From: Pyrinomonadaceae bacterium
GTDB taxonomy: Bacteria > Acidobacteriota > Blastocatellia > Pyrinomonadales > Pyrinomonadaceae
Length of the DNA: 47,064 bases
Direction: 5' to 3'
NCBI GenBank assembly: GCA_023717605.1
Contig: JAMQPH010000183.1
Span: forward strand, 1 to 47,064
The notes under the pieces were generated by a model that was given only the letters and a program-made list of their open reading frames with translations, was not told where the DNA came from and did no database searches. Both the position numbers and the translations under genes were made by a program. This document shows, in pieces, positions 6,452 to 12,938 of this stretch. Positions within the stretch are counted from its first letter, which is position 1, and each line of letters opens with the position of its first letter.

Positions 6452-8881
6452 TTAGCTTGTTGGAATTCCGTGTGAAGGCTGCTCGGTCGACCACAGCGGA
6501 GGCGTCTTCGACTCGTGCGGAGCCTCAGCGTCAGTGGGGCAGACGTCTTCGAGCGCGAGCGCGAGCACTTCATCGATGGTTTCGACCAGGTGGATGCACA
6601 ATGCGTCGCGCACTTCCACCGGCACCTCGGGCAGATCCTTCTCGTTGTCCTTGGGCAGGATAATGGTATCGATTCCAAAGCGGTGCGCGGCAAGTAATTT
6701 TTCCTTCACACCACCTATGGGCAGGACGCGACCACGTAGAGTGATCTCTCCAGTCATTGCCACGTTTCGTCTCACAGCCGCACGGGTCAGCGCTGAGGCC
6801 ATGGCGGTGGCCATCGTGATGCCCGCGGATGGACCATCTTTCGGTATCGCGCCTTCGGGAATATGGATATGCAGATCGCGCTTACGGATAAAATCCAGAC
6901 TCATTGCCAGCCGCTCAGCTCGCGCCTTGATGCAGGTGAGCGCAGCCTGCGCCGATTCCTGCATCACATCTCCGAGCTTGCCGGTAAGGGTTACACCCCC
7001 GCGACCTTTAACCAGGGTGGCTTCAATCTGAAGTACCTCGCCGCCAACCTCAGTCCAGGCAAGTCCCGTTGCCAGACCGATTTCGCTCTCAGCCGCAACA
7101 CCTTGCTGCCGGAATTTAATGGGGCCAAGCATCTCACGGACTCGCTCCGCGTCTAATGTGTCTTTGAAATCCGCCGCTACATTCTCGGAAACAAACTTGC
7201 GGGCCAGCTTGCGGCAACAGGAACCAATCTCACGTTCCAGGTTTCGCACGCCTGCCTCGCGTGTGTAATGCCGGATGATTTCCAGCAAGCCCTCATCTGA
7301 GAAAGTGAACTGCTCCGTCTTAAGACCGTTGCCCTCAGCCTGTTTCGGTACCAGGTGACGTTTGGCAATCTCGAGTTTCTCGCGCTCCGTGTAACCAGAG
7401 AGACGGAGGATTTCGAGGCGATCCTGCAACGCCGGCGGAATAGTGTGGAGCACGTTGGAGGTCGCTATGAAAAAGACCTTCGACAAATCGTACTCTACAT
7501 CAAGGTAATGATCCTGGAAGGTATGGTTCTGTTCGGGATCGAGTACCTCCAGCAACGCGGCACTCGGGTCGCCACGGAAATCAGCGCCAAGTTTATCGAC
7601 CTCATCAAGCAATAAGACGGGATTAACTGTGCCTGCCTTCTTCATCATCTGCATGATCTGGCCAGGCAAGGCCCCGATGTACGTGCGACGATGGCCGCGG
7701 ATCTCGGCTTCGTCGCGCACGCCTCCGAGTGACAACCGCACAAACTTCCGGCCCGTAGCCCGAGCGATGGATTTACCGAGACTTGTTTTCCCGACTCCCG
7801 GCGGGCCAACAAAGCAAAGAATGGATCCTTTCGGGTTCTTTACCAACTGGCGTACGGCGAGATATTCGAGAATCCGCTCTTTGATCTTTTCCAGGCTGTA
7901 ATGGTCCTCGTTCAGAACCTCTTCCGCCTTGCTCAGGTCCCTGATCTCTTTGCTCTTCTGTTTCCAGGGCACACTGACCAGCCAGTCGATATAGGTACGG
8001 GACACTGTGCCTTCGGCAGACATGGGTGGCATTGCTTCGAGCCGATGCAATTCCTGCAGCGCTTTCTCTTTGGCCTCATCAGTCATACCGGCCTCTTCGA
8101 TCTTTTTCTTCAGATCTTCGAGTTCGGCTTTCTCGTCTTTGCGTCCCAGTTCTTTGTGAATGGCTTTGATCTGCTCATTGAGGTAGTATTCTTTTTGCGC
8201 CTTCTCCATCTGGCGTTTAACGCGAGTCTGGATGGTGCGGTCGAGCTGGCGCTTTTCGATCTCCATCTCCAGCAGCTCAATCAATCGCTGCAGACGCGCC
8301 TGGGCGGAAAACAGTTCCAGCAAGCCTTGCTTGTCTTCAACGGAAATACGCAACTGAGAGGCAAGCGCGTCGGCCAGATGAGAAGGTTCCGGGTTGCGAA
8401 GTGCCGTTTGGAGAGCATCAGTCTGGGTGTCAGGCGCCAGACGGAGATGCTGCTCAACGAGCTGCCCTACCTTCTGAATCAGTGCATCCAGCCGGGTGCC
8501 CTCTTCATTAACTACTGGCGCACGTTTCACCAAGGCCATAAAAGTCCCGTCGGTATTCTCGACGCGAACCGTGGTTGCACGCTCGCGACCTTCTACCACG
8601 CCCTTGATCTGACCGTTTTCCTGTTTCTGGGACTGTAGAATACGTCCGAGCGTGCCCACGCCATAGATTTGTTCAGGCGCGGGTTCATCAACCGTGGCAT
8701 CGTGCTGGGTTGCCAGATAGATGGTGCGATCCGCGGAAAGCGCCTGTTCCAACGCCCGCACTGAACCCTTGCGACCGATTTTGAAAGCTACTTTTGTAAA
8801 GGGGAAAATCACCACGTCCCGGATAGGCACCATCGGATACCAGGCGACGTCGGCGGGGGAATGATCTGAATATTCTTCCAT
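6452..8881 (-). CDS. lon: ATP-dependent Lon protease
   Basis: An 809-residue LonA-type protease that degrades misfolded and regulatory proteins in the cytosol. The N-terminal LON substrate-binding domain starts at [18 protein letters not shown] long helical region follows ([20 protein letters not shown]). The AAA+ module has Walker [14 protein letters not shown] (near 355) and Walker [13 protein letters not shown]. The C-terminal S16 protease has the catalytic Ser in PKDGPSAG and the Lys in [12 protein letters not shown]. Length is typical. It is the first of a run with clpX, clpP and tig, all on the same strand, but a 150-base gap with a hairpin separates it from clpX. Confidence 0.98.
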
Positions 8882-9030: not shown

Positions 9031-10275
9031 TTAAGCCGCGGCGCCATCAACGCCCGTGAGGCCCTCGCCCGGAATAGCCCTGCGCCGTTCAACCATTTCG
9101 CTGTTGATCACAAACTCTTTGATGCGTTTTTGCGACGGCAAGGTATACATGGCATCCAGCAGCAATTCTTCCAGTATCATCATTAGGCCGCGAGCGCCGA
9201 CCTTGCGCTCCACAGCCTGGCGCGCGACTGATTTCAGCGCGTCGTCCGTGAACTTCAGCTTCACGTTATCGAATTCAAACTTCTTCTGATACTGCTTCAC
9301 CAGAGCGTTCTTTGGCTCAGTGAGAATCTTAATCAGAGCGCCCTCATCGAGCTCGTGTAACACGCCGCAAACAGGTAGCCGGCCTACAAACTCGGGAATC
9401 AAACCAAAACGAATGAGGTCTTCCGGCTGCACCTGGGCCAGCGCTTCGGCATGGCGGTGCGAGCCAGACTTAACCTCGGCATGAAATCCAAGTGATTTGT
9501 TGCGCAAACGCCTTTCGATAACTTTTTCCAGACCAACAAACGCGCCCCCGCAGAGAAACAGAATATTTGTTGTGTCTATTGGAAAGAACTCCTGATGAGG
9601 ATGCTTTCTGCCACCCTGAGGAGGAACATTGGCGACCGTACCCTCTAGTATCTTCAACAATGCCTGCTGCACGCCCTCACCCGAGACATCGCGGGTAATT
9701 GACGGGTTCTCGTCCTTGCGGCAGATCTTATCGACTTCATCTATGTAAATGATTCCTTGTTGGGCCCTTTCAACGTCGCCATTAGCCGCCTGCAGGAGCT
9801 TCAGGATAATGTTCTCAACATCTTCTCCGACATAGCCCGCTTCAGTGAGTGTCGTAGCATCAACAATCGTGAAAGGCACGCTCAACAATCGAGCCAGAGT
9901 TTGGGCCAGGAGCGTCTTGCCTGTTCCCGTGGGCCCAATCAGGAGGATGTTGGCTTTTTGAATCTCAACATCGGAGCGCCGGCGCCCGATTTCGATCCGC
10001 TTGTAGTGCTGATAAACCGCGACAGCGAGACGCTTCTTCGTCTCATCCTGTCCGATAACATACTCGTCCAGAAAGCTTTTGATCTCGCCGGGCTTCGGAA
10101 GCGGGGGGCGTGTGGCCACGGATTCGGCTTGCTGGTCGTCGGTGATGATCTCATTGCAGATGTCGATGCATTCATTGCAAATGTAAACGGTCGGACCCGC
10201 AATAAGTTTCTTCACCTCGTTCTGCGACTTCCCACAGAATGAGCAGCGCAGCGTATCGTCGGTTCGTCTTACCAT
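9031..10275 (-). CDS. clpX: ATP-dependent Clp protease ATP-binding subunit ClpX
   Basis: A 414-residue AAA+ unfoldase that feeds substrates to ClpP. The N-terminal zinc-binding domain has CSFCG and [10 protein letters not shown] (four Cys within about residues 11-40). The motor has Walker [13 protein letters not shown], pore loop GYVGED, Walker [11 protein letters not shown] and sensor-region motifs down to EFVGRLPV. The ClpP-docking loop is LGF (in NKSLGFHAE) where E. coli has IGF, a conservative variant. The gene follows clpP and a separate zinc-finger gene on the same strand with short gaps, so an operon is likely. Confidence 0.98.
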
Positions 10276-10305: not shown

Positions 10306-10527
10306 CTACTGAGGAACCACCACCGGCGTCTTGGAAACCTTCGTGCCGGTGACCATCTGGTAGTAACGGCGCACGCATTCGTCACAGATGAATGCGCTCT
10401 TGCCAATCATTCGTCTGGGAACGCCCGGCAGCCGCTGGGGAGTCCCCGCCATGATGTCCGCCACCTCATCTCTAGACCTTCCACAGAATGAACAGTGGAA
10501 CCCTTTGGCTTTCATCTTCGCAATCAT
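10306..10527 (-). CDS. Stand-alone ClpX-type zinc-binding domain protein
   Basis: A 73-residue protein that is little more than a ClpX N-terminal zinc finger: HCSFCGRSRDEV (Cys 12 and 15) and AFICDECVRRYY (two further Cys). It resembles the N-terminus of the adjacent ClpX ([11 protein letters not shown] ... YICNEC) but has about ten extra residues between the two Cys pairs (RLPGVPRRMIGKS) and no ATPase domain. It starts 25 bases after clpP and ends 30 bases before clpX, which still has its own finger. The family domain binds zinc, dimerises and contacts substrates and adaptors in ClpX. This gene could therefore encode an adaptor or competitor for ClpXP. That role is inference; the domain assignment is clear from the Cys pattern and flanking residues. 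MIAKMK allows a start four codons later. Confidence 0.85.
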   Translation of the reverse strand: MIAKMKAKGFHCSFCGRSRDEVADIMAGTPQRLPGVPRRMIGKSAFICDECVRRYYQMVTGTKVSKTPVVVPQ

Positions 10528-10552
10528 TCGTCCAGGTCTCCAACGTCGCGCG

Positions 10553-11137
10553 CTACTCTCGATGCGCGATTACCTCGTCTATTAAACCATACTCCTTGGC
10601 TTGCATAGCAGACATTATTTTGTCACGTTCAACGTCGCGCTCAACCGTCTCATAGGATTGACCGGTATGTTTAGCAATGATTTGAGAGGTGAGTTCGCGC
10701 ATTCTCAGGATCTCTTCGGCCTGAATTCGAATGTCGGTGGCCTGACCTTGAGCACCACCAGTTGGCTGGTGAATGAGAATGCGACAGTTGGGGAGGGCAA
10801 AACGTTTACCTTTTGCGCCGGCAGCCAATAGCATCGCGCCCATCGAAGCGCACTGGCCAACGCAAATCGTGGTCACATCCGGGCGAATAAACTGCATGGT
10901 GTCGTAAATTGCCATGCCTGCCGTAATCGAGCCGCCCGGCGAGTTGATGTACACGTTGATGTCTTTTTCCGGATCCTCAGCCTCGAGAAATAGTAGTTGC
11001 GCCACAATCAAATTGGCGATCTGATCATCGATGGGTGTTCCCAGGAAGATAATGTTGTCTTTCAGCAGTCGTGAGTAGATGTCAAAAGCGCGTTCGCCGC
11101 GCGACGTCTGCTCGACGACCATTGGGACTAGGGCCAT
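10553..11137 (-). CDS. clpP: ATP-dependent Clp protease proteolytic subunit ClpP
   Basis: A 194-residue serine peptidase that forms the double-heptamer chamber used by ClpX. The oxyanion segment is [11 protein letters not shown]. The nucleophile Ser is in [11 protein letters not shown] (the family usually has GQAASMGA), the His is in LIHQPTGG, and the Asp is in [14 protein letters not shown] chose the ATG at 11135-11137, with AGAGG five bases upstream. A GTG two codons earlier is also in frame. It heads the zinc finger-clpX group and follows tig across a palindromic repeat. Confidence 0.97.
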
Positions 11138-11165
11138 ATGCACCTCTTAGAGTAAAGACTCAAAA

Positions 11166-11268: not shown

Positions 11269-12639
11269 CTATTCTGCTGCGGACTCTCGCTTTATCGGTT
11301 CTTGACTGTCGGCTTCGGGCTCAGTCTCTTCAGTCCACTCGACGTCGGTTACGCGCGCATTTTCTCTTAACACGTCAAGCGCTTTTCGATTTCGCAATCT
11401 GTTCGCGATGCTACGTTCGCCCCCATCCTTTGTCAAGACGCCACGCACTTGTTCTTTCGACTGTCGCGAGGCCCTTGCAATCGCATCGATCTCAACTTCA
11501 ATCTCTTCATCCGAGACGTTGATTTGTTCCTCCTCAGCGATGCGCTCGAGTAGCATTGAGCCGCGCACGTCCTCCTCCGCCTGGGTCTTCAACTCTTCAC
11601 GCGCGCCTTCCCAGTTGAGTTCCTGACTGCGTGGATCGATGCCTCGTCCGATCATGTCGCGCACAACACTTTCGAGTCGGTATTGAGTCTGATGTTCTAC
11701 CATGGTCTGAGGCACTTCGAATTGGTGAGCTTCCAGAAGCTTGCGCATTAATTCACTGCGCAGACGATTGTCGGCTTCCGCGATAGCACGGTTTTCCAGG
11801 TCCTGGCGAATTTTCGTCCGCAAAGTTTCCACCGAATCAAACTCATCACCCAGGCTTCTGGCCCATTCATCGTCTAGAGCGGGAAGCTCCTTTACACGCA
11901 CCGCGCTTACCCTGGCTTTGTACTCGACCTTCTTTCCCGCCAGCCCTTTCGATGAAAAATCCTCGGGATAATCGACCACGAACTGCTTTTCGTCGTCGGC
12001 TCTTACCCCGGTCAGGTTATCAGTGAACTCCCGCTGAACAGTTGCGCCGCCAAGGGTTACGTCGACATCTTCGACGTTGATGTCTTCATCCTCGGGGTGG
12101 TCGACGAACTTTCCCTGAAAACTAACGGTGACCGTGTCTCCCGATTCCGCGGGGCGGTCTTCAACTGGTTGCAAAGCAGCGGAAGCCTCGCGAAGTCCTT
12201 CCACCGTGCGGTTGACGTCTTCGTCGGTAACCGGGCGAATTCTGCGAGTAGCCTCGATGCCTTTGTAGCTACCCAGCTCAACCTTTGGCAGAACTTCGAC
12301 ATCTACGTGAAACGAAATCGCATCTTCGCCGATTCGCTCTAAAGCCTCGTTAGTGTCGAGATGAACGTCCGGTTCGCCGATGGCCGCTAGTTCGTGTTTT
12401 TCGATTGCATTGTTGACGGCGTCGGGTATCAGCTCCCGTAATACGTCGCCTCGAATCTCACTCTTGAAGCGAGTGCGCACTACCGCGCGCGGAGCATGCC
12501 CGCGGCGAAAGCCCGGAACATTCATTTGCTTGGCGTAGCGATCACTAATGCGATCGAACGCGGCGCGGACTACTTCCTGCTCAACCTCGATTTTGATCTC
12601 CTTGCGTGTCGGAGAAACATCAACCAGTTCTGTCTTCAT
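11269..12639 (-). CDS. tig: Trigger factor (ribosome-associated chaperone)
   Basis: A 456-residue ribosome-bound chaperone and peptidyl-prolyl isomerase. The N-terminal ribosome-binding domain contains the signature PGFRRGHAPRAVV (normally GFRxGxxP). The FKBP-like domain covers ESGDTVTVSFQGKFVD onward. The C-terminal helical cradle carries MLLERIAEEEQINVSDEEIE and an acidic tail. The frame is open further upstream, but that extension runs through repeat DNA, so I start at MKTELVDVSPTRKEIKIEVE (ATG 12637-12639), where homologous N-termini begin. It precedes clpP in transcription order, the common tig-clpP-clpX arrangement. Confidence 0.96.
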   Translation of the reverse strand: MKTELVDVSPTRKEIKIEVEQEVVRAAFDRISDRYAKQMNVPGFRRGHAPRAVVRTRFKSEIRGDVLRELIPDAVNNAIEKHELAAIGEPDVHLDTNEALERIGEDAISFHVDVEVLPKVELGSYKGIEATRRIRPVTDEDVNRTVEGLREASAALQPVEDRPAESGDTVTVSFQGKFVDHPEDEDINVEDVDVTLGGATVQREFTDNLTGVRADDEKQFVVDYPEDFSSKGLAGKKVEYKARVSAVRVKELPALDDEWARSLGDEFDSVETLRTKIRQDLENRAIAEADNRLRSELMRKLLEAHQFEVPQTMVEHQTQYRLESVVRDMIGRGIDPRSQELNWEGAREELKTQAEEDVRGSMLLERIAEEEQINVSDEEIEVEIDAIARASRQSKEQVRGVLTKDGGERSIANRLRNRKALDVLRENARVTDVEWTEETEPEADSQEPIKRESAAE

Positions 12640-12649
12640 AAATGATCCG

Positions 12650-12853
12650 TTGTTCGTTGTCAGTAGTTCGTTGTCAGTTGTCAATGTCATGTGAACTCAG
12701 TACTTAGTACTTGGAACTTAGTACTTGGCTCGCTATTCGATCGCCGCAGGTAGAGTCCGATGTCGAGTGGAGGACGAAGTACAAAGCACGAAGTACAGAG
12801 TACCAAGGAAAATTTCGAACAACTGACAACGGACAACTGTCCACTGACAAATT
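12650..12853. repeat. Nested heptamer-phased inverted repeat between tRNA-Leu and tig
   Basis: There are two nested arm pairs. The outer pair uses GTTGTCA-type units (about 12650-12689) against their complement (about 12816-12853, GACAACT/GACAACG). The inner pair uses ACTTAGT/ACTTGGA units (about 12691-12729) against ACGAAGT/ACAAAGC/ACAGAGT (about 12771-12810). The outer arm abuts the tRNA 3' end. Unit length is 7 in both pairs although the words differ. Confidence 0.8.

Positions 12854-12938
<85 letters not shown>

Follow-up and report, generated by a model that had tools for sequence, protein, structure and literature searches.

The clpP-clpX junction of a member of the Pyrinomonadaceae (Acidobacteriota) contains a small gene that encodes nothing but a ClpX-type zinc finger. 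It lies on the minus strand at positions 10306-10527 of the window, by which we mean the whole 47,064-nucleotide stretch of DNA analysed here. The gene is genuine, under selection and specific to its lineage, its type turns up repeatedly at a single genomic slot, and it shows a familiar domain family arranged in a new way. We give a probability of about one half to the reading that its product is a small ClpXP accessory protein, encoded alongside clpP and clpX, that would derive from a zinc-binding domain of ClpX.

The surrounding genes follow the order tig-clpP-finger-clpX-lon, all on the minus strand. The trigger factor gene tig (11269-12690) is the first in the cluster and lon (6452-8881) lies downstream of clpX; both were identified by sequence and as conserved neighbours. 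clpP (10553-11143) is full-length, with domain and family matches, and clpX (9031-10275) is complete and carries its own ordinary zinc finger. A possible ribosome-binding site (GGAG, 10538-10541, minus strand) precedes the start of the finger gene; the site is unclear in G044 and G104. Promoter and terminator scans gave nothing beyond chance level. A structural RNA at the finger locus was rejected, as the scan returned just one tRNA, at 12857-12938.

The open reading frame begins with ATG and translates into 73 amino acids, MIAKMKAKGFHCSFCGRSRDEVADIMAGTPQRLPGVPRRMIGKSAFICDECVRRYYQMVTGTKVSKTPVVVPQ. The Pfam profile zf-C4_ClpX (PF06689) matches this protein in two pieces flanking an insert (46.9 bits, E 2.6e-12; gathering cut-off 27 bits), and the Pfam search found no further domain above cut-off. 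The SspB domain (PF04386) gave no match. Against the ClpX models TIGR00382 and PRK05342 the finger reached 21.7 bits, with a cut-off of 370.75; at 73 aa, and having neither the AAA+ module nor the full-length score required of ClpX, it is not a ClpX. When the window's whole genome was searched with a ClpX-finger profile, the only matches at E 0.001 were the finger gene and clpX. The best sequence and fold matches were the ClpX zinc-binding domain structures 2ds5, 2ds7 and 1ovx, and the protein would have a ClpX-type fold around one zinc ion. An AlphaFold model built from ten rows was poor (mean pLDDT 54) and serves only as a coarse match to 2ds5. The protein is basic, with a net charge of +6 to +8. 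The initial annotation had described a 73-residue protein consisting of a ClpX-type zinc-binding domain only, between clpP and a complete clpX, and the reading frame, the Pfam match and the full-length neighbours bear this out.

Alignment of the members placed the cysteines in two CxxC pairs, CSFC (C12 and C15, 10483-10494) and CDEC (C48 and C51, 10375-10386). All four ligands are present in the window's finger and in 9 of the 10 aligned members; in the long-loop member of G104 (L053:1400-1618), C15 is replaced by Tyr (CSFY) and a zinc ligand is lost. The pairs are separated by 32 residues in the finger and by 18 in this genome's ClpX, which makes 14 extra residues, not 10 as first counted, and these 14 are present in all ten intact copies. 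A spacing of about 18 is usual in ClpX but is no Pfam requirement, so that the 32 residues found here alter the loop and not the domain assignment. The insert TPQRLPGVPRRMIG (residues 29-42, 10402-10443, minus strand) has four invariant residues, P30, G35, V36 and G42, and sits where ClpX has its adaptor-docking loop. Residues 120-123 (SSTR) of human CLPX lie between the Cys pairs and form part of this loop; changes to them abolish docking of PDIP38 and leave peptide binding intact (PMC7647994). By a check of the position in the sequence, the insert falls exactly at the SSTR loop. It may also be an imperfect repeat of the adjacent turn, with IMAG echoed by MIGKS and the E. coli IAGPS aligning to both. 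At the N-terminus, the motif MIAKMKAK (10504-10527; MIA[KR]MKA[RK] in the family) is conserved in its amino acids while its codons vary, and the MIA[KR]MKA portion is common to all ten intact copies.

We found the long-loop finger gene in 11 of 119 Pyrinomonadaceae genomes, namely nine species of the window's genus and one each from two other genera. A check of the gene order in relatives, proposed with the initial annotation, revealed that the finger follows clpP and precedes clpX in every carrier with assembled context. In one carrier (G095) the contig ends inside the gene, which shows an apparent frameshift. A profile of the long-loop family matched nothing else but ClpX itself in 396 Acidobacteriota genomes. 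A wider genome scan gave three matches outside this phylum (L055-L057), of which L055 is ClpX itself and L057 a different AAA+ protein. In the latter (L057:2890-4476, from a Kiloniellales MAG) an AAA+ ATPase of 528 aa, CDC48-like by eye, begins with a ClpX-type finger.

Seven other genomes of the genus are without the finger. Two of these are incomplete and yielded no ClpX finger of any sort; in the other five, the clpP-clpX gap measures just 36-63 bases and holds no notable ORF. In a tree built from ClpX, ClpP, trigger factor and Lon, these five species form a single sister subclade, and their empty junction is therefore best read as one loss within the genus. No SspB homologue (PF04386) was found in 16 genomes of the genus, the window's genome included.

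The ten intact copies are each 73 or 74 codons long. Where synonymous change was unsaturated, dN/dS was mostly 0.06-0.22, indicating strong purifying selection. Over four disjoint close pairs we counted 67 differences at about 184 synonymous sites and 36 at about 644 non-synonymous sites (Fisher p ~5e-24). Most of the invariant residues, including MIA[KR]MKA and P30, G35, V36 and G42 of the insert, are spelled by several codons, so the constraint acts on the protein.

Several origins could be rejected. A chance ORF or a pseudogene is ruled out by selection and synteny (the same place in eleven genomes), and a recent copy of the genome's own clpX 5' end by synonymous sites that are near saturation (pS 0.75). 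Matches to phage or plasmid cargo were weak and partial, at 35-47% identity, and those to PHROGs were likewise weak. A functionless duplicate of the clpX 5' end that is now decaying might seem to fit the five sister species without the gene, the frameshifted contig-end copy and the copy that lacks a Cys, but it conflicts with the low dN/dS and the steady length. For the clade as a whole the selection test has already refuted it, and we consider it next to impossible. The initial annotation would have been refuted by absence from relatives together with a decayed frame; instead, the gene is conserved, selected and fixed in position.

Free ClpX fingers of other kinds occupy the same gap. In four scattered Pyrinomonadaceae (G103, G024, G010 and G028) the finger found there has ordinary spacing, differs from the finger of the genome's own ClpX chiefly at synonymous sites and is likewise under purifying selection. 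The tree of the four cluster proteins places G103 as sister to G104, a carrier of the long-loop kind. In a second Blastocatellia family (f6), all six sampled genomes (L117-L122) encode a two-finger protein between clpP and clpX that is under strong purifying selection (pS 0.91, pN 0.08 in one pair). Its first finger has ordinary spacing. The second is altered (CSFN..H): Asn or Ala takes the place of one Cys, and all six genomes keep a His at the fifth residue past the first Cys, possibly as a new zinc ligand. Like the long-loop protein, this one is of the free ClpX-finger kind, occupies the same slot and evolves under purifying selection, but it has two fingers and falls into a separate group. 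In the finger tree, which was built on about 45 columns, support was 78% for the long-loop group and 84% for the two-finger group, and the ordinary-spaced fingers did not group. Given these different kinds, the clpP-clpX slot has been filled on two or more occasions, probably on three or more. No second ordinary-spaced finger near clpX appeared among the matches listed for 159 Acidobacteriota (139 outside the class) and 100 Pseudomonadota.

ClpX-type fingers were also seen elsewhere. Two Pyrinomonadaceae loci just downstream of lon (L062:2523-2963 and L070:2301-2990) encode free fingers, one carrying a long additional domain. Two-finger proteins of the ClpX type, about 100-112 residues in length, lie outside the clp cluster (L065:2843-3178, L066:3063-3371, L067:2865-3164, L068:2866-3174), and at L127:1553-2125 a ClpX finger is fused with a helical domain, HEPN-like as judged by eye.

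The finger of ClpX itself is near-invariant, with one sequence common to 24 genomes, mostly Pyrinomonadaceae. The free finger retains only 14 of its 32 core residues and has acquired fixed traits of its own, so the initial view that it goes beyond a simple duplication holds. In E. coli, trigger factor binds a ClpX pocket that contains the Phe of CSFC and Ile46 and that overlaps the sites for lambda O and adaptors; F16 and I46 of this pocket are needed for trigger factor action (PMC7804408). The pocket Phe (F14 of the finger) is kept in 10 of 10 copies. At the position equivalent to Ile46, nine copies have Met, Leu or Ile and one has Lys. Where the helix of ClpX has Leu42/Ile, all ten carry Arg or His, a change that could make dimerisation weaker.

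How might such a protein act? Isolated ClpX zinc-binding domains fold and dimerise, and adaptors dock on them (PMC9035409; PMC7226468). The free finger would pair with ClpX fingers as mixed dimers or dock beside them; alternatively, it would bind adaptors or trigger factor in trans. Some ClpX hexamers would then present a different adaptor or substrate surface, and what ClpXP degrades would change. Along with the retained pocket Phe, the finger has an enlarged docking loop and a fixed basic N-terminus. As isolated fingers dock adaptors, and as this one has a remodelled loop and is encoded with ClpX, an accessory protein that alters docking is the simplest reading. The analysis shows the gene, its domain, conservation, selection and position and the site of the insert; from these we infer zinc, the fold, binding to ClpX and an effect on ClpXP degradation. 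The domain match, fixed position, purifying selection, repeated filling of the slot, site of the insert, pocket Phe and lack of SspB count in favour of the accessory role; the Arg/His at the Leu42 position, the ligand loss in G104, the gene-less sister subclade and the poor AlphaFold model count against it. As for the function with ClpX that had been proposed at the outset, the position, the repeated slot filling and the insert site speak for it, and adaptor, decoy and mixed dimer look alike at the sequence level. More tentatively, the finger could be an exchangeable, trans-acting docking domain of an AAA+ protease, whereby spare fingers with altered loops couple to the built-in ones and redirect the protease, a device that would have originated repeatedly in the clpP-clpX gap among Blastocatellia.

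A decoy or anti-adaptor that holds adaptors, trigger factor or substrates off ClpX and so dampens ClpXP would also make use of the retained Phe and of being encoded alongside ClpX and trigger factor, and the isolated E. coli domain is indeed bound by trigger factor (PMC7804408). However, a pure decoy should retain the ordinary docking loop, and the loop is the most altered part here, which makes this unlikely. It is similarly improbable that the protein is a small zinc protein independent of ClpX, for example a nucleic-acid binder merely resident in the operon: its basic character, the lost hydrophobic helix residues and the occurrence of ClpX-type fingers in non-ClpX proteins such as cyanobacterial sigma factors (PMC11119718) would agree with this, but at least two, probably three, separate finger kinds in the same gap would be left unexplained.

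Finally, the finger might itself be a ClpXP substrate that is bound by its N-terminus (I-A-K-M) and degraded, thereby sensing ClpXP capacity. The lambda O-type N-terminal ClpX signal is T-A-K-I. The finger's motif resembles this and is kept in all ten copies despite the codon variation, and lambda O-like N-terminal signals are a known class for ClpX (PMC8138137). Yet the motif is very short, and the consensus used for comparison found no confirmation in the literature checked; we regard this explanation as very unlikely.

Our literature search, in which coverage of subscription journals was limited, found no description of a free ClpX finger. We rate the novelty as moderate, and as high if mixed dimers that re-target ClpXP prove true. 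The gene also amounts to a natural experiment on the function of the finger and its docking loop by themselves. Compared with the N-terminal zinc-binding domain of ClpX (PF06689; 1ovx, 2ds5-2ds8), it shares the CSFC...C.EC core, the C-terminal helix and the docking-pocket Phe, but it stands alone without an AAA+ module, has 14 more residues at the adaptor-docking loop and carries its own N-terminal motif. With SspB, RssB, PDIP38 and trigger factor it would share the proposed role of altering the targets of ClpXP via the ClpX finger. The ClpX adaptors in the papers cited are unrelated proteins that dock on this finger, whereas the free finger is the finger itself, with no sequence relation to SspB, and, encoded in the same operon, it would regulate ClpXP in a different way.
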